Of a stretch of 64,000 nucleotides of DNA, positions 1,380-31,499 are shown in pieces. Source of the stretch: Actinobacteria bacterium HGW-Actinobacteria-6 (lineage in GTDB: Bacteria; Actinomycetota; Coriobacteriia; Anaerosomatales; Anaerosomataceae); contig PHEU01000001.1 of assembly GCA_002841295.1 (NCBI GenBank), positions 1 through 64,000 on the forward strand, given 5' to 3'. Below the pieces are notes generated by a model. It ran no database searches. It had not been told where the DNA came from and saw only the letters and a program-made list of their open reading frames with translations. Every line of letters begins with the position of its first letter. The first letter of the stretch is position 1. A program made the translations under genes and the position numbers.

Positions 1380-3473
1380 GTGCTCGAACAGTTCTTCTCT
1401 CCTCGCTCTGTTGCAGTGGTCGGCGTTTCCCGCGAAGAGGGGAAGGTCGGCCATTACATATTCGACAACCTTCTCAAAGCCGGTTTCCCGGGTGATGTCT
1501 ATCCGGTGAACCCGCGGGCAGCGGATGTACATGGACACGTGTGCTATCCGAGCATCACCGATGTCCCTGGCCCCGTAGATCTTGCGATCATCGTTGTCCC
1601 GGCAGCGCATGTTGCTTCGGTTGTCGAGGAGTGTGGGCAACACGGTACTCAATCGGTGATCGTCATCTCGGCCGGGTTCAAAGAGACCGGCCCCGCCGGC
1701 GCTGTATTGGAGCGAGACGTACTCGCAGCGGCCGCACTGCACGGAATACGCGTTCTCGGCCCGAACTGCCTCGGTCTCATCTCCACATCAAGCGACCTGA
1801 ACGCGTCGTTCGCGCCCTCAATGCCCGGGCAGGGCACGATCGCTTTCATGTCGCAATCAGGTGCCCTCGGCACAGCTGTCCTCGACTGGGCGGCCGGTGA
1901 GGGGATTGGACTTTCGAGATTCGTCTCACTCGGCAACAAGGCAGACGTCTCAGAAGTCGACCTCGTTCGTACGTGGACAGACGACCCCGACACAAGTGTC
2001 GTCGCTGCATACCTTGAAGCTGTCAGCGACGGCCGCGCTTTTGTTGATGCAGCGTCCGAGCTTTCTGCAGTCAAACCACTCATCGCACTCAAGGCTGGTG
2101 GCTCCGACGCCGGCGCACGAGCCGTGTCATCGCACACCGGCAGCCTCGCTGGCTCCGAGCAGGCGTACGACGCAGCGTTCCGCAAGGCCGGGGTGATCCG
2201 TGCGCGTTCGGTACAGGAGCTCTTCGACTTCTCCGTGGGGTTCGCTCGACAGCCGTTGCCGAGCGGCCCCGGCCTGGTGATACTCACCAACGCTGGCGGC
2301 CCCGCCATCCTTGCAACTGACGCATGTGAGCGTTCGGGCGTTTCGCTGTCATCGCTTGAGCCTGAGACCATTCAGGCCCTGCGCGAGGCATTGCCGGCTG
2401 CTGCTGCGTTCTATAATCCCGTTGACGTTCTCGGCGATGCAACGCCCGAGCGATACGAAGTCGCAGGCAAGATTCTCGCAAAGGATCCCAACGTTCGCGC
2501 GATTCTGGTGATTCTCACACCTCAGGCGATGACACAGGCCTCCGACATCGCACGAGTCGTCGTCGAACTCTCGAACTCGTCACGACTACCGGTCTTTGCC
2601 AGCTTCATGGGCAAAGGCGCCGTAGCGGAAGCGATTCCGATTCTGCGCGACGGCCTCGTTCCGCACTTCGAGTTCCCGGAGCGGGCTGTAGCGACGCTCG
2701 GGGCAATGCTCCAGCACCGTCGGCAGTTGGATGCGCCGCGTACCAAGCCGCCGGTGATAGTGGCCGATACAGCCGCAGTACGGCAGGCCATCGACCATGC
2801 AGCCGCAGCCGGGCGCACGTTCATCACCGAGCAGTCCGCGTCTCTGATCGCCGAGGCATACGGCATCACCGTCCCAGCCGGCGGACTCGCTAAAGATCTG
2901 GAAGCAGCACGGATTCTCGCCGACGAGGTCGGATACCCTGTCGTGCTCAAGATCGCGAGCCCGGATATCCTGCACAAGTCAGACATTGGCGGCATCCGCG
3001 TTGGGATATCCAACGAGGCCGAGCTCGATGAGGCGTACGAGGACATCATCAACAAGGTACGCGCACGTATGGAAGATGCAAACATCTGGGGCGTGACCGT
3101 TCAGCGGATGCTCGACCCTGGCCGAGAGGTGATCATCGGGGTCAACCGCGACCCGCAATTCGGCCCGCTGTTGATGTTCGGTCTCGGGGGTATCTACGTT
3201 GAGGTCATGAAGGACGTGACATTCAGGCTTTGTCCCGTGACAACGGACGAGGCCAGGACGATGCTCTCCGAGATTCGTGGATTCGGCCTCTTGCGAGGAG
3301 CGCGAGGACAACATGCAGCCGACCTCGACGCAGTCATCGACACCATCGTACGGATATCGGCGCTGGTAATCGACTTCCCTGAAATCACTGAACTCGATAT
3401 CAATCCGCTCATCGTTGCTGACAAGGGTGGCGGCGCAGTCGCGGCCGACATTCGTATCGGAATCGGAGGATGA
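1380..3473 (+). CDS. Acetate-CoA ligase (ADP-forming), fused alpha-beta
   Basis: This is a 697-residue NDP-forming acyl-CoA synthetase. It interconverts acetyl-CoA, ADP and phosphate with acetate, CoA and ATP, giving substrate-level ATP in fermenting anaerobes. The order is a CoA-binding Rossmann domain (about 5-130), two succinyl-CoA ligase-like domains (about 150-300 and 310-450) and an ATP-grasp domain (about 480-697). The phospho-histidine motif SSHTGSLAG places the catalytic His at residue 252, and the ATP-grasp part has the expected YPVVLKIASP...HKSDIGG run. This is the single-chain form with alpha and beta subunits fused. The GTG start follows GGAGAGG. The exact acyl substrate (acetyl, propionyl or branched) cannot be read from sequence. 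The next gene follows after 2 bases. Confidence 0.9.
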   Translation: MLEQFFSPRSVAVVGVSREEGKVGHYIFDNLLKAGFPGDVYPVNPRAADVHGHVCYPSITDVPGPVDLAIIVVPAAHVASVVEECGQHGTQSVIVISAGFKETGPAGAVLERDVLAAAALHGIRVLGPNCLGLISTSSDLNASFAPSMPGQGTIAFMSQSGALGTAVLDWAAGEGIGLSRFVSLGNKADVSEVDLVRTWTDDPDTSVVAAYLEAVSDGRAFVDAASELSAVKPLIALKAGGSDAGARAVSSHTGSLAGSEQAYDAAFRKAGVIRARSVQELFDFSVGFARQPLPSGPGLVILTNAGGPAILATDACERSGVSLSSLEPETIQALREALPAAAAFYNPVDVLGDATPERYEVAGKILAKDPNVRAILVILTPQAMTQASDIARVVVELSNSSRLPVFASFMGKGAVAEAIPILRDGLVPHFEFPERAVATLGAMLQHRRQLDAPRTKPPVIVADTAAVRQAIDHAAAAGRTFITEQSASLIAEAYGITVPAGGLAKDLEAARILADEVGYPVVLKIASPDILHKSDIGGIRVGISNEAELDEAYEDIINKVRARMEDANIWGVTVQRMLDPGREVIIGVNRDPQFGPLLMFGLGGIYVEVMKDVTFRLCPVTTDEARTMLSEIRGFGLLRGARGQHAADLDAVIDTIVRISALVIDFPEITELDINPLIVADKGGGAVAADIRIGIGG

Positions 3474-25844: not shown

Positions 25845-27212
25845 TTGGCATCGATGAGCGCGCTCGACACCGTGACCGTGATCGGCGGAGGGCTGGCCGG
25901 CTCAGAAGCGGCATGGCAACTCGCCATTCGAGGTATACCCGTCCGCCTGATGGAGATGCGACCGACTGTCGTATCTCCGGCGCACCACAGCGACGGACTC
26001 GCCGAGCTGGTCTGCTCGAATTCCTTCAAGAGTGATGACCCGGCAACGGCAACCGGCATGCTAAAGCGCGAACTCGAGGCGCTGGGTAGCCTGATCATCG
26101 CAGCAGCCAGAGCCGCTGCGGTTCCGGCGGGCGCTGCGCTCGCAGTCGACAGGGACGGCTTTTCGGCGTCAATCACCGAGTTGATCGAGAGTCATCCACT
26201 GATTGAACTCGTCAGGGAAGAGGCGACTGTAGTCCCGGATGGCGACGTGGTCATCGCGAGCGGCCCACTGACCAGCGCCAACCTTGAGCGCGCGCTATCT
26301 GAGCTCGTTGGCGATTCACGGCTCGCGTTCTTCGATGCCGCCGCACCCATAGTTGCTGCGGAGTCCATCGACATGAAGCGCGCATTTCGCGCCTCCCGCT
26401 ACGACAAGGGGGAGGGCGCAGACTACATCAACTGCCCGATGAATCGCGAACAGTACGATGCTTTCCTCGGTGCAATCCTTGATGCAGATCGCGTCATCCT
26501 GAAGGAATTCGAACAGAAGGACCTCTTCCAGGCATGCCAGCCGATCGAAGAGGTTGCGCGGTGTGGCGCGGATGCGTTGCGATACGGAGGCATGAAGCCA
26601 GTAGGGCTCGTAGACCCAGCCACCGGAGAAAGACCATGGGCAGTTCTACAGCTTCGTGCTGAGAATCACGCGGCGACAGCGTACAACCTGGTTGGCTGTC
26701 AGACCAACCTCACATTCAGCGAACAGCGCCGCGTATTCTCTTTGGTTCCGGGCCTTGAGAACGCCGAATTCCTGCGCTACGGAGTGATGCATAGAAACAC
26801 GTTCGTCGACGCACCGCGCCTGCTTGCGGCTGACCTTTCGCTTCGCTCGAACCCAAGAATCCGCATCGCCGGCCAGCTCTCTGGCACCGAAGGTTATTTA
26901 GAAGCCGCTGGCGGGGGACTCGTAGCGGCGCTCGGCATCGTCAATGCTCGTCTGGGTCATCAGACCCTTCCAATCCCCGAAGACACGGCCCTGGGTAGTC
27001 TCATCGCCTACGCAACGAACCCGGACACCAGCCGCTATCAGCCGATGCATGTCAACCTCGGCATCATGCCACCGATGGATTCTATCCGCGCCAAACGCGC
27101 ACGCCGCGCCGCAATAGCCGAACGCGCCGCAGCAGCGATGCTTGAGTACTCCCGAGCACATGCCGAGGCTCTCCACCCAGCATTGGCCGCAGCATCGGAG
27201 ATCGTCGGGTGA
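25845..27212 (+). CDS. trmFO: Methylenetetrahydrofolate-tRNA-(uracil-5-)-methyltransferase
   Basis: TrmFO is a flavoprotein that methylates U54 of tRNA, using methylene-tetrahydrofolate rather than S-adenosylmethionine. The FAD-binding loop VIGGGLAGSEAAWQLA is close to the N-terminus, and CSNSFKSD, MNREQYDAF and the C-terminal NLGIMPPM block match the family. I chose TTG at 25845 because GGAG lies 5 bases upstream; ATG at 25854 is a close second. The ATG at 25815 overlaps a TACAAT box at 25811-25816 that could be a -10 element. The stop overlaps xerC. The order dprA-trmFO-xerC is as in Firmicutes, but topA is missing between the first two. Confidence 0.93.
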   Translation: MASMSALDTVTVIGGGLAGSEAAWQLAIRGIPVRLMEMRPTVVSPAHHSDGLAELVCSNSFKSDDPATATGMLKRELEALGSLIIAAARAAAVPAGAALAVDRDGFSASITELIESHPLIELVREEATVVPDGDVVIASGPLTSANLERALSELVGDSRLAFFDAAAPIVAAESIDMKRAFRASRYDKGEGADYINCPMNREQYDAFLGAILDADRVILKEFEQKDLFQACQPIEEVARCGADALRYGGMKPVGLVDPATGERPWAVLQLRAENHAATAYNLVGCQTNLTFSEQRRVFSLVPGLENAEFLRYGVMHRNTFVDAPRLLAADLSLRSNPRIRIAGQLSGTEGYLEAAGGGLVAALGIVNARLGHQTLPIPEDTALGSLIAYATNPDTSRYQPMHVNLGIMPPMDSIRAKRARRAAIAERAAAAMLEYSRAHAEALHPALAAASEIVG

Positions 27213-28105
27213 GCATTCACGATGCAGACGCCCTGATCGCCGCGTACCTTGAGTCCCTTCAGGTGGAGCGCAACGCGTCTCCTCGGACAGTGGAAGCGTA
27301 CTCGAGCGACCTTGCACAGTTCTCAGACTGGCTTGAGCGTCAGAGCTATGACATAGCGGCGCTTACGTACCGCAACCTGCGTGGTTTTCTCGGCGAATTG
27401 GACCGAGCCCGATACTCACGTCGGACCATAGCCCGTAAGCTATCGGCAGTGAGGTCGTTCTTCGTCTTCCTCGTTGAGAGGGGAGTCGTTGCAGGCAGTC
27501 CCGCCGACGTCGTCGCAACACCGAAGCTTCCAACGCGCCTGCCGGTAATTGCCTCGGCCGAGACGATCGCTGCCCTGATTGAGGCGCCGGATGCGTCTAC
27601 ACCCGGCGGTCTCCGCGATCGCGCCATCCTGGAACTACTGTATGCAGGGGGACTTCGCGTATCAGAGCTCACGGGGCTCGACGTAGGGGACGTGGATTTC
27701 GCACAAGGACAAGTTCGAGTTCTCGGCAAGGGCTCCAAAGAACGGATCATTCCGATTCATCGCATAGCCTGTCAGCGCATTTCCGAGTACGTCTCTTCGG
27801 GGCGCCCGAAGCTGAACAAGCAAGACGAGTCGGCGCTGTTCCTCAACCGACTCGGAGGCAGGCTTTCGGCTGATGGCGTGCGCAGACTCATGAAACGCTA
27901 CCTGCAAATCACAGGTTCTGCTCAGGCATTAAGCCCACATGCGTTGCGTCATAGCTTCGCCACCCATATGCTTGAAGCAGGAGCGGACCTACGCTCCGTA
28001 CAGGAGCTTCTAGGGCACGTTGCCCTGTCAACCACCCAGATTTATACTCACTTGAGCACGCAAAGGCTCCAGGACGTACACAAGAACGCACATCCGCGGG
28101 GCTAA
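27209..28105 (+). CDS. xerC: Tyrosine recombinase XerC
   Basis: XerC resolves chromosome dimers at dif with XerD. The 298-residue protein has a SAM-like core-binding domain (about 5-90) and a catalytic domain with the full set of residues: Arg150 in GGLRVSELTGL, Lys174, His244 and Arg247 in HALRHSFATH, His270 in LLGH and the nucleophile Tyr279. The GTG start overlaps the trmFO stop. Placement between trmFO and rpsB is typical for the chromosomal enzyme, so a phage integrase is unlikely. FtsK, which activates Xer recombination, is encoded at 57653. Confidence 0.92.
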   Translation: MSIHDADALIAAYLESLQVERNASPRTVEAYSSDLAQFSDWLERQSYDIAALTYRNLRGFLGELDRARYSRRTIARKLSAVRSFFVFLVERGVVAGSPADVVATPKLPTRLPVIASAETIAALIEAPDASTPGGLRDRAILELLYAGGLRVSELTGLDVGDVDFAQGQVRVLGKGSKERIIPIHRIACQRISEYVSSGRPKLNKQDESALFLNRLGGRLSADGVRRLMKRYLQITGSAQALSPHALRHSFATHMLEAGADLRSVQELLGHVALSTTQIYTHLSTQRLQDVHKNAHPRG

Positions 28106-28126
28106 TTGAACAAAGGGGCACGCTTA

Positions 28127-28918
28127 ATGCGGTCACAGGCGGGCAGTGACGTCACGATCTTCTGGGACGCCTTCAAGGGGACGGGGGACCTCGTCGCCAG
28201 GGAGCAACTGATACTCAACTACTCGCCACTGGTGAAGTACGTCGCCGGTCGCTTGTCTTCGAATCTGCCTCAGAACGTTGAGACGTCTGACCTCATCTCC
28301 TATGGAGTATTCGGGCTGATCGACGCAATCGAGAAGTTCAGCCCCGAGCGCGGCATCAAGTTCGAAACGTATGCAATCGCTCGCATCAAGGGTGCCATCA
28401 TCGACGAGCTACGTGCGATGGACTGGGTGCCCCGATCCGTTCGTGCACGCGCGAGAGAGATCGAAGGCGCGTACGTTGCACTTGAGAACAAGCTCAAGCG
28501 AGTTCCTTCGGATACCGAAGTCGCCGCCCATATGAACATCAGCAAGAAGGACCTGGACGATATCTTCACAAAGCTGTCGTACACCTCCGTCGTCTCCTTT
28601 GAGGAGTTGTGGTCCGGAGGAATGGACCGTGACGATCGGAACAGCCCGGTCGCGACCATCAAGGACGACACCGCCGAAGATCCGGTTCAGGTCTTTGAGA
28701 GTGCAGAGCTGAAAGGCATACTCTCGAAAGCAATTGAGCGCCTGCCTGAACGCGAGAAGGTCGTCATCGCGCTGTACTACTACGAAGGACTCACGCTCAA
28801 GGAGATCGGGGCTGTACTCGGCGTTACAGAGTCTCGAGTGAGCCAGCTCCACACCAAGGCAGTACTTCGACTCAGAGCGCGACTGCATGCAGCACAGGGC
28901 TTCATACCGGCTAGCTGA
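28127..28918 (+). CDS. whiG: RNA polymerase sigma factor, WhiG/FliA family
   Basis: This is a sigma-28 type factor of 263 residues. Region 2 is visible as LVKYVAGRL...SDLISYGVFGLIDAIEKF, with the promoter-melting segment FETYAIARIKGAIIDELR. Region 3 is VPSDTEVAAHMNISKKDLDD, and region 4 holds the helix-turn-helix LTLKEIGAVLGVTESRVSQLHTKA. In Streptomyces whiG, a sporulation sigma factor, also lies just upstream of rpsB-tsf; in motile bacteria the family drives flagellar genes. Neither flagellar genes nor an anti-sigma factor is in the window. I chose the ATG at 28127 because AAAGGGG lies 9 bases upstream; TTG at 28106 has no such site. Confidence 0.9.
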   Translation: MRSQAGSDVTIFWDAFKGTGDLVAREQLILNYSPLVKYVAGRLSSNLPQNVETSDLISYGVFGLIDAIEKFSPERGIKFETYAIARIKGAIIDELRAMDWVPRSVRARAREIEGAYVALENKLKRVPSDTEVAAHMNISKKDLDDIFTKLSYTSVVSFEELWSGGMDRDDRNSPVATIKDDTAEDPVQVFESAELKGILSKAIERLPEREKVVIALYYYEGLTLKEIGAVLGVTESRVSQLHTKAVLRLRARLHAAQGFIPAS

Positions 28919-28933
28919 CAGGAAGGCTACCTC

Positions 28934-29521
28934 ATGGCGGGCGAGCGCATCCTCATTGTGGAAGACACCGAACTTCTGAGGCGCATCTATCAGGACAGGC
29001 TCACGCAAGACGGCTACATAGTACTCACCGCAGGCGATGGCCTCGAAGCTCTGGCAGTGCTGCGCGCCAATCCTGTTGACCTCGTGCTCCTCGACCTCAT
29101 CATGCCGCGTATGGGCGGTCTCGATGTTCTTGAGTCGATGAAAGCGGATCCTCGCACCGGCAACCTTCCCGTTGTCATCCTGACGAATCTCGGAGAAGAA
29201 TCAGCGATCAAGCGTGCGCTCGAGCTTGGCGCACTGGACTACCTCATCAAGAACCAGGCAAAGCCGGCGGACGTGGCCGAGAAGATTCGACTGGTCCTCG
29301 ACAACCTCGGAGGTTGCACCGGCTCCGATGAGTCATACAAACTCGTCGTTCGCGATCGCGAGGTAGATGCCGAGTGCTTCATCAAGAAGGCTGGCCTTCC
29401 CCGACGTTTCTGGTGTCCGGCCTGTGAGGTTGAGCTCACACTTGAACTACTGCCTAAGTCCGATCGCGCAGGCTGGTATGACGCTCACGTCATATGCCCG
29501 ATGTGCGGTCGTGAGTTCTAA
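28934..29521 (+). CDS. Response regulator receiver fused to a C-terminal zinc ribbon
   Basis: This 195-residue protein begins with a complete receiver domain (about 1-122): acidic pocket Glu10 and Asp11, phospho-acceptor Asp54 in LLDLIMPRMGG and conserved Lys106. It has no DNA-binding output domain. The last 70 residues instead hold two cysteine pairs, CPAC at 161-164 and CPMC at 188-191, with the spacing of a zinc ribbon, so the output may be a protein or RNA contact. No histidine kinase lies in the window. The gene follows whiG by 15 bases with a GGAAGG site, so the pair is probably one operon. I do not recognise a named family for this architecture. Confidence 0.85.
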   Translation: MAGERILIVEDTELLRRIYQDRLTQDGYIVLTAGDGLEALAVLRANPVDLVLLDLIMPRMGGLDVLESMKADPRTGNLPVVILTNLGEESAIKRALELGALDYLIKNQAKPADVAEKIRLVLDNLGGCTGSDESYKLVVRDREVDAECFIKKAGLPRRFWCPACEVELTLELLPKSDRAGWYDAHVICPMCGREF

Positions 29522-29711
29522 GGCCGACTCCACCTTCCTGGAGTACAGTCAGACGCTTGGTATGCCGAACCGGGTATGATACCCTGTCACGGCTCGTAAT
29601 CTTGCACGTCCGTGGACCCGCACGCCGGTGCCCAATTTGGAATCCTCCGAATTGGAAAGCGTGGCAGGGGATGAAGCGGACGGACGTACAACCGACGTTG
29701 GAGGAACCACC
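29522..29711 (+). promoter_or_regulatory. rpsB leader region with a strong hairpin
   Basis: The 190-base gap before rpsB contains a TATGAT box (29575-29580) within a small inverted repeat (29572-29576 with 29580-29584), without a clear -35. A 10-bp hairpin (arms 29632-29641 and 29646-29655, one G-T pair, 4-base loop) lies 56 bases before the start. rpsB leaders in other bacteria are targets of S2 autoregulation, so this hairpin is a candidate site here. That role is inferred. Confidence 0.5.
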
Positions 29712-30536
29712 ATGACCACAGTCTCTATGAAGAATCTGCTCGAAGCTGGTGTTCACTTCGGACACCAGACCCGCCGCTGGAACCCGAAGATGAAGCCGTA
29801 TATCTTCACCGAGCGTAACGGCATCTACATCCTCGATCTCCAGCGCAGCCTTCGCGAGATCGACGCCACGTATCGCTTCGTGCGCGACCTGACCGCCCGT
29901 GGCGGTTCGGTATTGTTCATCGGCACCAAGAAGCAGGCACAGGAGCCCACCTCCGCAGAAGCCACTCGCTCATCGATGCCGTACGTCAACCAGCGCTGGC
30001 TCGGCGGAATGCTCACGAACTTTGTGACCATCCGCAAGCGGATCGCCCGCATGGTCGAGCTTGAAAACATGGAAACCAACGGCGTAATGGCCAGCCTTCC
30101 CAAGAAGGAAGCCACCAAGCTTCGCACAGAACTCGGAAAGCTCCAGAAGAACCTGAACGGAATCCGCGACATGAACTCGCTGCCGGACGCCGTGTTCGTT
30201 GTTGACACCAAGAAAGAGAGCATCGCTATCGCCGAGGCTCGCCGACTGAAGATCCCGATCATCGGACTCGTTGACACCAACGCAGATCCCGATGAAGTCG
30301 ACTTCGTCATTCCCGGCAACGACGACGCGATTCGCTCGGTCGGACTCATCTGCCGCATCATCGCGGACGCTGCAGTTGACGGTCGCGTGGCCGCCGGTCT
30401 CGCCGTTGAGCCTGTCGACGAAGCAGCTGTCGCTGCAGCTGAAGCCACTCCTGTGGCCGAAGCCGCACCTGTAGCTGAGCCGGCTGTGCCGGTTGTCGCC
30501 GCGGAAGCCGCACCTGCGACTACCGAAGCCGAGTAA
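29712..30536 (+). CDS. rpsB: 30S ribosomal protein S2
   Basis: S2 joins late in small-subunit assembly. The 274-residue protein starts [20 protein letters not shown] and has the family blocks [21 protein letters not shown] and [20 protein letters not shown]. The last 45-50 residues form an Ala-Glu-Pro-Val-rich acidic tail like that of S16 in this window. I chose the ATG at 29712 after TTGGAGG; the longer reading from 29628 passes through the leader hairpin. tsf follows 60 bases later, the usual pairing. Confidence 0.96.
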
Positions 30537-30551
30537 TTAGTCCTTTCAGGG

Positions 30552-30567
30552 ACGCCCTTGCGGGCGT
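30552..30567 (+). promoter_or_regulatory. Small hairpin between rpsB and tsf
   Basis: A 6-bp stem (30552-30557 with 30562-30567) with a TTGC loop lies between the two genes and ends 13 bases before the AGGAGG site of tsf. There is no T run, so attenuation or mRNA processing is more likely than full termination. Confidence 0.4.
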
Positions 30568-30596
30568 ACCACTTCCTACTAGGAGGCACTGCAGGC

Positions 30597-31499
30597 ATGG
30601 AGATCACCGCAAAGATGGTCAAGGACCTGCGCGAGATTACCGGCGCAGGGATGATGGATTGCAAGAAGGCACTCATTGAGGCCGAGGGAAACATGGACGC
30701 CGCTGTCGACATCCTTCGCACGAAGGGTCTTGCCGCGCTCGCCAAGAAGGCCGGCCGTGCCACGAATGAGGGCGCTGTCGCCGCATACGTCAACGAGTCT
30801 GGCTCTGTCGGCTCACTCGTCGAGGTCAATTGCGAGACCGACTTCGTCGGCATCAACGCTGCGTTCCTCAGCTTTGTGAATGACCTCGCGGCGCACGTCA
30901 GCACTGCCGCCCCGGCAGACGTATCGGCCCTTATGGCGCAGACGTTCTCAGGCCGTGAGCACACCGTCGAGCAGGTGCTCGGCGAAGTCGTCAGCAAGCT
31001 TGGCGAGAACATGAACATCACCCGATTCACCCGCCGAGAGGTTTCCGGCACCGGTGCGGTTGGCAGCTACGTCCACATGGGCGGCAAGATCGGCGTGCTC
31101 GTTGAAGTTGCGTTCTCTAACGCTGCCACGGCCGCCAGGCCTGAGGTTGCGGCACTACTTCGCGACATGGCGATGCAGGTTGCAGCGGCCGCGCCAATCG
31201 CCGCAACCCGCGACGAAGTTTCGACCGACGTCATCGAGCATGAACTGTCGATCTTCCGCGCCCAGGCAGCCGAGTCCGGCAAACCTGAGGCGATTCAGGA
31301 GAAAATGGCCGAGGGTCGCATCCAGAAGTTCTACAAAGAGGTCTGCCTTACCGAGCAGGTCTTCGTGAAGGACCCTGACATCACCGTCAGCCAGCTCATT
31401 GCCAAGATCTCCAAAGAGGTCGGTGACGAGATCACGCTCATCGCCTTCGAGCGCTTCGCGCTCGGCGAAACGAGCGACACAGAACCTGAAGCCTGTTAA
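30597..31499 (+). CDS. tsf: Elongation factor Ts
   Basis: EF-Ts exchanges GDP for GTP on EF-Tu. The 300-residue protein has the N-terminal UBA-like region with TGAGMMDCKKAL, the core with NCETDFV and two dimerisation subdomains, and the C-terminal QPFVKD-like segment, here EQVFVKDPDITV. I chose the ATG at 30597 with AGGAGG 10 bases upstream. Two hairpins follow the stop, so much of the transcription probably ends here and pyrH has its own control. Confidence 0.96.
   Translation: MEITAKMVKDLREITGAGMMDCKKALIEAEGNMDAAVDILRTKGLAALAKKAGRATNEGAVAAYVNESGSVGSLVEVNCETDFVGINAAFLSFVNDLAAHVSTAAPADVSALMAQTFSGREHTVEQVLGEVVSKLGENMNITRFTRREVSGTGAVGSYVHMGGKIGVLVEVAFSNAATAARPEVAALLRDMAMQVAAAAPIAATRDEVSTDVIEHELSIFRAQAAESGKPEAIQEKMAEGRIQKFYKEVCLTEQVFVKDPDITVSQLIAKISKEVGDEITLIAFERFALGETSDTEPEAC

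Follow-up and report, generated by a model that had tools for sequence, protein, structure and literature searches.

The window analysed here, a stretch of 64,000 nucleotides, carries between the sigma factor gene whiG and rpsB a gene (28,934 to 29,521, plus strand) for a 195-residue protein, called RRZ here, in which a receiver domain is joined to a four-cysteine ribbon; it was delimited by its ORF translation, the Pfam receiver model PF00072 and an alignment of orthologues. Encoded beside WhiG, RRZ has the appearance of a phospho-controlled input of a new type to that sigma factor, any contact between the two being putative. The reading we favour, with a confidence just short of an even chance, is that RRZ is an orphan response regulator that would be expressed with whiG and would tune WhiG and, through it, type IV pilus expression.

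The receiver and the four-cysteine ribbon

The receiver of RRZ spans residues 6 to 111 (28,949 to 29,266, plus strand), which match PF00072 with 89.3 bits against a curated cut-off of 30.2 (2.4e-25). All of its catalytic residues are intact: E10, D11, D54, N85 and K106 are kept in 52 of 52 orthologues of the order, and position 84 is T or S in the same 52. D54, whose codon lies at 29,093 to 29,095 (plus strand), is the predicted phosphoacceptor, a role known from the response regulator family, and phosphorylation of RRZ, by an unlinked kinase, would be expected from its membership of that family. The sequence-only reading had named E10, D11, D54 and K106 in the receiver and the cysteine pairs C161/C164 and C188/C191 further on, and the translation holds every one of them at the position given. 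Genome G000 has 41 receiver-like matches to RRZ, RRZ itself counted, and several long frames on its contigs C7 and C37 hold more than one receiver among these matches.

Beyond the receiver comes a linker of about residues 126 to 145 (29,309 to 29,368, plus strand), variable and predicted with low confidence: pLDDT falls below 50 at residues 126–138 and 142–144, and the mean majority fraction in the orthologue alignment is 0.36 at residues 121–134 against 0.75 in the receiver. The C-terminal domain (29,369 to 29,518, plus strand) is predicted to form one helix (residues 146–153), followed by a ribbon in which C161-P-A-C164 and C188-P-M-C191 enclose a beta hairpin (strands 169–174 and 182–187), with block pLDDT values of 71–80 over residues 161–195 and a mean of 70 when the ribbon was predicted on its own. 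Past residue 120 the only invariant residues are C161, P162, C164, C188 and C191, as counted in the 50 intact orthologues left from the 52 gathered once a copy cut at a contig end (L171) and a frameshifted one (L179) are excluded. H185 was invariant in the first 30 orthologues, but it is H in just 38 of the 51 readable rows of the larger set, the frameshifted L179 included, and the likely metal site is therefore C4. Two CxxC knuckles around a predicted beta hairpin, with the cysteines present in 50 of 50 orthologues, are what a zinc ribbon should have, and the C-terminal pattern reads as the signature of a metal ribbon, with zinc the probable metal to judge from the motif. Across 53 RRZ rows, two CXXC motifs occur in 50, three in L031 and none in the cut or frameshifted L171 and L179. 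In the last of these (genome G038) the receiver is intact and the ribbon out of frame, which may be an error of assembly or decay at an early stage.

No Pfam or NCBIfam model rises above its curated cut-off in the C-terminal part of the window's RRZ (the best Pfam ribbon score is that of PF23548, 20.4 bits against 27, and the best NCBIfam score 13.9 against 109), and no DNA-binding domain was found in RRZ. The sub-threshold Pfam matches are mostly zinc ribbons. A search of the PHROGs with the C-terminal part gave two matches only, at E 0.024, and a search of plasmids for the ribbon gave none; among PDB sequences the ribbon profile fits best to 6zxw_H (E 0.0011), annotated as uncharacterized; Trm112-like ribbons may be similar. 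Many of the weak structural neighbours of the predicted ribbon are RPB9- or TFIIS-type ribbons from RNA polymerase, and Elf1, RPB9, TFIIS and NrdR ribbons stand among these neighbours and the sub-threshold Pfam matches, as might be expected if the ribbon bound DNA or RNA, an unusual output for a response regulator, and if RRZ had targets that have nothing to do with WhiG. Yet the matches are weak (Z 2.9 and rmsd 2.2 over 36 residues for the best solved ribbon, E 0.35 for the best in Foldseek), no basic ribbon residue is invariant across the 50 orthologues, and zinc ribbons can also be protein-contact modules, all of which makes a nucleic-acid target rather unlikely.

Linkage to whiG and distribution of RRZ

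The genes next to RRZ in the window are on the plus strand like RRZ itself: xerC (27,209 to 28,105; PF00589, PF02899) abuts whiG, which runs from a TTG at 28,106 or an ATG at 28,127 to 28,918, and rpsB (29,712 to 30,536; PF00318) follows RRZ past a gap of 190 bp. Between the whiG stop at 28,918 and the RRZ start at 28,934 are 15 bp, the distance the sequence-only reading had given. It had also held that missing linkage to whiG in relatives would speak against a tie, and the neighbourhood survey found the opposite, with whiG as the immediate upstream, same-strand neighbour of RRZ in all 52 loci read in the order (30 first and 22 later, L013 counted although its whiG is partial at a contig edge) and a gap of 14 to 51 bp in 29 of 29 measured loci. 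From this short gap, whiG and RRZ are probably cotranscribed. rpsB comes after RRZ in 29 of the first 30 loci and 19 of the 22 later ones, at 141 to 245 bp in 29 loci, and contig ends explain its absence at L024, L171 and L185. At L169 (genome G017) there is no rpsB match in the stretch read past RRZ, though the contig runs on.

Nine other neighbours are housekeeping genes by Pfam, namely dprA, a GidA-family gene that we take to be trmFO, xerC, rpsB, tsf, an amino-acid-kinase gene that is pyrH by position, and the genes for ribosome recycling factor, RNase HII and a Mg-chelatase-like protein; no histidine kinase was found among these nine. An Rfam search over 28,000 to 31,000 gave no match at E up to 1, and scans for sigma-70 promoters and terminators gave no site between RRZ and rpsB. 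The WhiG promoter pattern has no match with two or fewer mismatches in the 64-kb window, where 2.4 would be expected, and whiG and RRZ are therefore not seen to be under WhiG's own control.

In a search of 61 genomes, made up of the window's own and 60 relatives, 50 gave a match to RRZ with E <= 1e-25, which, together with the invariance of the four cysteines in 50 of 50 orthologues, makes it more than a product of chance. A profile of the C-terminal part matched 51 of 396 genomes of the class, every one within the window's order, which is probably Anaerosomatales, and none of the other 327; within the order, RRZ is present in 52 of 69 genomes, counting one cut at a contig end (G019) and the one with the frameshifted ribbon (G038). 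A scan with exact peptide patterns, which misses diverged copies, yielded 37 named loci. Of these, 36 bear the label Actinobacteria, Actinomycetes, Actinomycetota, Coriobacteriia or Coriobacteriaceae, and the labels Anaerosomatales, Slackia and Aeromicrobium occur once each; the lowest-scoring locus, L074 (Aquibium, E 4e-4, 29 residues), probably matched by chance. In a sample of the phylum, ribbon matches were found in 5 of 396 genomes, four of the order and one, G675, of another class, in which it is the only one of 36 genomes with a match. A widespread architecture with a known, unrelated output, which would have argued against the original suggestion, was not found in the data searched, where the C-terminal domain is confined to one order and one genome of another class.

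In G675 an RRZ with the same ribbon lies away from whiG on contig C32, flanked by ORFs resembling acetyl-CoA synthetase and polysaccharide deacetylase. In the same genome rpsB comes immediately after whiG (65 percent identical), with no RRZ between them. Transfer or a misbinned contig could account for this copy. G675 has WhiG, so the two proteins can still meet, and linkage is not obligatory. The position of this sole outside orthologue, and the xerC-whiG-rpsB order found without RRZ in another class, would fit a gene with its own function that merely rides in an old and stable cluster; the linkage unbroken in 52 loci, the short gaps and the WhiG-specific signal that accompanies loss of RRZ (below) render such a hitchhiker improbable.

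Type IV pili and the loss of RRZ

The gene upstream of RRZ scores 369.1 bits with the NCBIfam WhiG equivalog PRK06288, above its cut-off of 343, and from the earlier label "WhiG/FliA" the first name stands and the second falls. Its best solved relatives are 6pfj (E 1e-94) and 6pfv (E 5.1e-94), named RNA polymerase sigma factor in the PDB, which we take to be the Streptomyces RsiG-WhiG complex. For Rubrobacter, an RsiG-WhiG switch is reported to control type IV pili, with promoters of the form TAAA / GCCGATAA (PMC8325347). Five genomes of the window's genus contain three exact copies of this pattern in all, each before a type IV prepilin gene, and the window's own genome has such a pilin promoter with one mismatch. 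With up to two mismatches it lies upstream of the pilin gene in 26 of 30 loci, whereas only 22 of 544 control windows from the same loci contain it, the 30 (L096 to L125) being the best-scoring of a pilin search in which 62 of 69 genomes matched; four of the five RRZ-less pilin loci are counted among the 26. The seven genomes with no pilin match comprise 5 of the 17 that lack RRZ and 2 of the 52 that bear it, counts that may reflect distance, since the query was taken from the window's genus, to which the RRZ-less genomes are only distantly related. Flagellin was found in none of the 69 genomes of the order by a search that was positive in 4 of 14 control genomes. From the pilin promoter and the absence of flagellin together, WhiG very likely drives type IV pili in the order, with or without RRZ, and the conserved WhiG/sigma-28-type pilin promoter in an order with no detected flagellin extends the Rubrobacter finding.

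Of the 69 genomes, 68 have a WhiG that is at least 65 percent identical, fragmented in G023 and G051; the exception, G041, has a distant sigma match only and is missing rpsB too, so the locus is missing from that assembly. Among the 17 RRZ-less genomes, 16 have rpsB, and in 15 of these whiG stands beside it with no intact RRZ, which means that RRZ is dispensable. In G034 (L095), one of the 15, a decayed, frameshifted RRZ remnant lies between whiG and rpsB, representing either a loss in progress or a fault of the assembly, the genome being 65 percent complete. In G051 (L094), the sixteenth, the place of RRZ between the whiG end and rpsB is taken by an ORF (1773–3281, minus strand) whose repeats look RCC1-like and cell-wall-binding-like by eye. 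In a tree built from WhiG, RpsB and XerC the presence of RRZ needs five changes (45 rows) or six (67 rows), at least four of which are forced by well-supported branches of the 67-row tree. When the tree is rooted on G675, RRZ occurs on either side of the order, the deepest forks being weak, so that repeated loss, at least four times with whiG kept, is the simplest reading. Since WhiG persists in RRZ-less lineages, as does the pilin promoter in four of five loci, modulation of WhiG is a likelier role for RRZ than essential activation.

A matched-sister test set RRZ-less groups against their nearest RRZ-bearing relatives in five contrasts (15 against 11 genomes) and counted overall-conserved columns changed on one side only, with 70 percent as the main threshold; it is the test relied on here, in a late form designed after earlier strict and loose tests had been seen. 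At this threshold the conserved WhiG columns changed on the loss and sister sides number 59:22, against 34:28 for RpsB, 28:54 for XerC and 32:37 for Tsf, in an alignment where some genes are cut at contig ends and where clade A, which has two parts, is compared with sisters that do not form a single clade. Fisher's test of WhiG against the three controls pooled gave 1.3e-5 at a threshold of 0.7, 1.8e-4 at 0.6, 4.9e-4 at 0.8 and 0.037 at 0.9, with columns treated as independent, which those of one lineage are not. The loss sides hold more genomes than the sister sides, an imbalance that the comparison between genes should absorb. Relative to the controls, four of the five contrasts favour a link between RRZ and WhiG, and the G116/G030 contrast goes the opposite way. 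The WhiG changes (loss/sister) are spread over sigma2 (20/8), sigma3 (10/2), sigma4 (10/2) and the C-terminal tail (12/4), densest in the tail (7 columns) and not confined to one surface, and no docking patch is therefore claimed.

In a first look at 29 against 15 rows, S51, R212 and Q264 of WhiG stood out among others. The strict test (columns 97 percent invariant in 52 RRZ-bearing rows) failed to reveal a link, with two WhiG columns against a null mean of 0.96, equalled by a fraction of 0.23 of the mock sets, and three columns in the control RpsB, where a fraction of 0.04 was as high. A looser test gave five WhiG columns against a null mean of 0.46, with none of 500 mock sets as high and no column in RpsB or XerC; it was dropped, as three of the five (51, 83 and 150) are common to the RRZ-bearing sisters of clade A. 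At R212, the genome whose RRZ lies elsewhere has K and two RRZ-bearing genomes have Q. A distance-matrix test of ribbon against WhiG gave a weak correlation (partial r 0.11) and was uninformative.

The matched-sister result gives modest support to a shared function of RRZ and WhiG, not to contact between them. Of the link to the sigma factor first proposed from position, the functional tie is thus modestly upheld, and the RRZ of G675 shows that position itself is not always kept. A weakened pilus system that relaxed both RRZ and WhiG would give the same signal, and the pilin no-match counts leave some room for this. The ribosome had also been offered as a contact, and rpsB is indeed the next gene on the same strand; the gap before it, however, is wide with RRZ and similar without it (67 to 361 bp between whiG and rpsB in RRZ-less genomes, 12 of 15 at 165 to 244), and neither RpsB nor Tsf changes in excess when RRZ is lost, so that a role of RRZ in translation through rpsB-tsf is very improbable and the suggestion is not supported. 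Some receivers, such as FrzS and PilG, act on the pilus machine or on cell polarity and not on transcription, and the ribbon of RRZ could likewise dock on a pilus protein, its gene being merely co-expressed with a pilus-making sigma factor. That WhiG most likely drives pilin suits such an action, whereas RRZ occurs as a single copy, next to whiG and away from the pilin matches, and the loss test singles out WhiG among four neighbouring genes (those of WhiG, RpsB, XerC and Tsf); we consider it unlikely, though of the alternatives it is the one to be taken most seriously.

A possible phosphorelay input to WhiG and its known counterparts

That RRZ acts somewhere in the WhiG pathway we hold to be somewhat probable; that it does so by direct contact with WhiG or its holoenzyme is a tentative suggestion to which we would give less than an even chance. 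In the mechanism proposed, a histidine kinase encoded elsewhere, perhaps a hybrid kinase, would phosphorylate D54, and the phosphorylated receiver would expose or rotate the ribbon, a putative protein-contact module whose target would be WhiG or the WhiG-RNA polymerase holoenzyme. RRZ might serve as a co-factor of WhiG or as a brake relieved by phosphorylation, and the output of WhiG so tuned would set type IV pilus expression. The fullest form of the idea, in which a phosphorelay input acts directly on a WhiG-class sigma factor through an undescribed C4 ribbon, whether it complements or replaces the c-di-GMP/RsiG switch, and thereby links type IV pilus production to a two-component signal in actinobacteria without flagellin, is possible and distinctly more doubtful than pathway membership. 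Were RRZ to feed a two-component signal into WhiG, two signalling currencies would meet at one sigma factor, and a function would be assigned to a response-regulator output specific to this lineage. The repeated loss of RRZ in nature provides a ready-made test, and the predicted pilin promoter a direct readout.

Control of a sigma factor by a response regulator is not new in principle, since RssB, HsbR and PhyR are response regulators that end in such control, the RssB-type adaptors by binding sigma and delivering it to a protease. They fuse a receiver to an effector that does not bind DNA, as RRZ probably does too; their outputs are other domains, whereas that of RRZ is a C4 ribbon, and we know of no regulator of this kind for WhiG. 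In the open-licence literature no paper was found on a receiver with a C4 ribbon as a two-component input to WhiG.

WhiI is part of the WhiG pathway, and both it and BldM bind DNA, whereas RRZ, an orphan regulator like them, retains the phosphorylation residues and has no DNA-binding domain that we could find. BldM and WhiI are described as orphan response regulators of Streptomyces development and called atypical (PMC4125116).

A dedicated input to WhiG is RsiG, a c-di-GMP-armed anti-sigma factor; according to a 2021 account, no sigma/anti-sigma complex other than RsiG-WhiG was known to be a target of c-di-GMP (PMC8325347). RRZ would resemble RsiG in being a dedicated WhiG input, and in Rubrobacter WhiG is reported to act on type IV pili from the promoter consensus found here; RRZ differs in that RsiG is a coiled coil with the motif E(X)3S(X)2R(X)3Q(X)3D and RRZ a receiver with a ribbon, the motif occurring in none of 53 RRZ rows. 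In five genomes of the genus, a DNA pattern for the motif matched 38 times and a reversed control 19 times. Of the 38 matches 28 were translated, and the one sequence that recurs among these, EAGVTRVSLGVQS, is not RsiG-like by eye; this search thus identified no RsiG, though the order may have one. The nearest architectural analogue of RRZ found is TackOD1, a cysteine-rich, receiver-associated domain of archaea, which is reported in type IV pilus loci and has 11 conserved cysteines, with five CXXC motifs and one HXXC (PMC5847659). Both join a receiver to a partner resembling a metal ribbon, and they part in the two CXXC motifs of RRZ as against the five CXXC and one HXXC of TackOD1.
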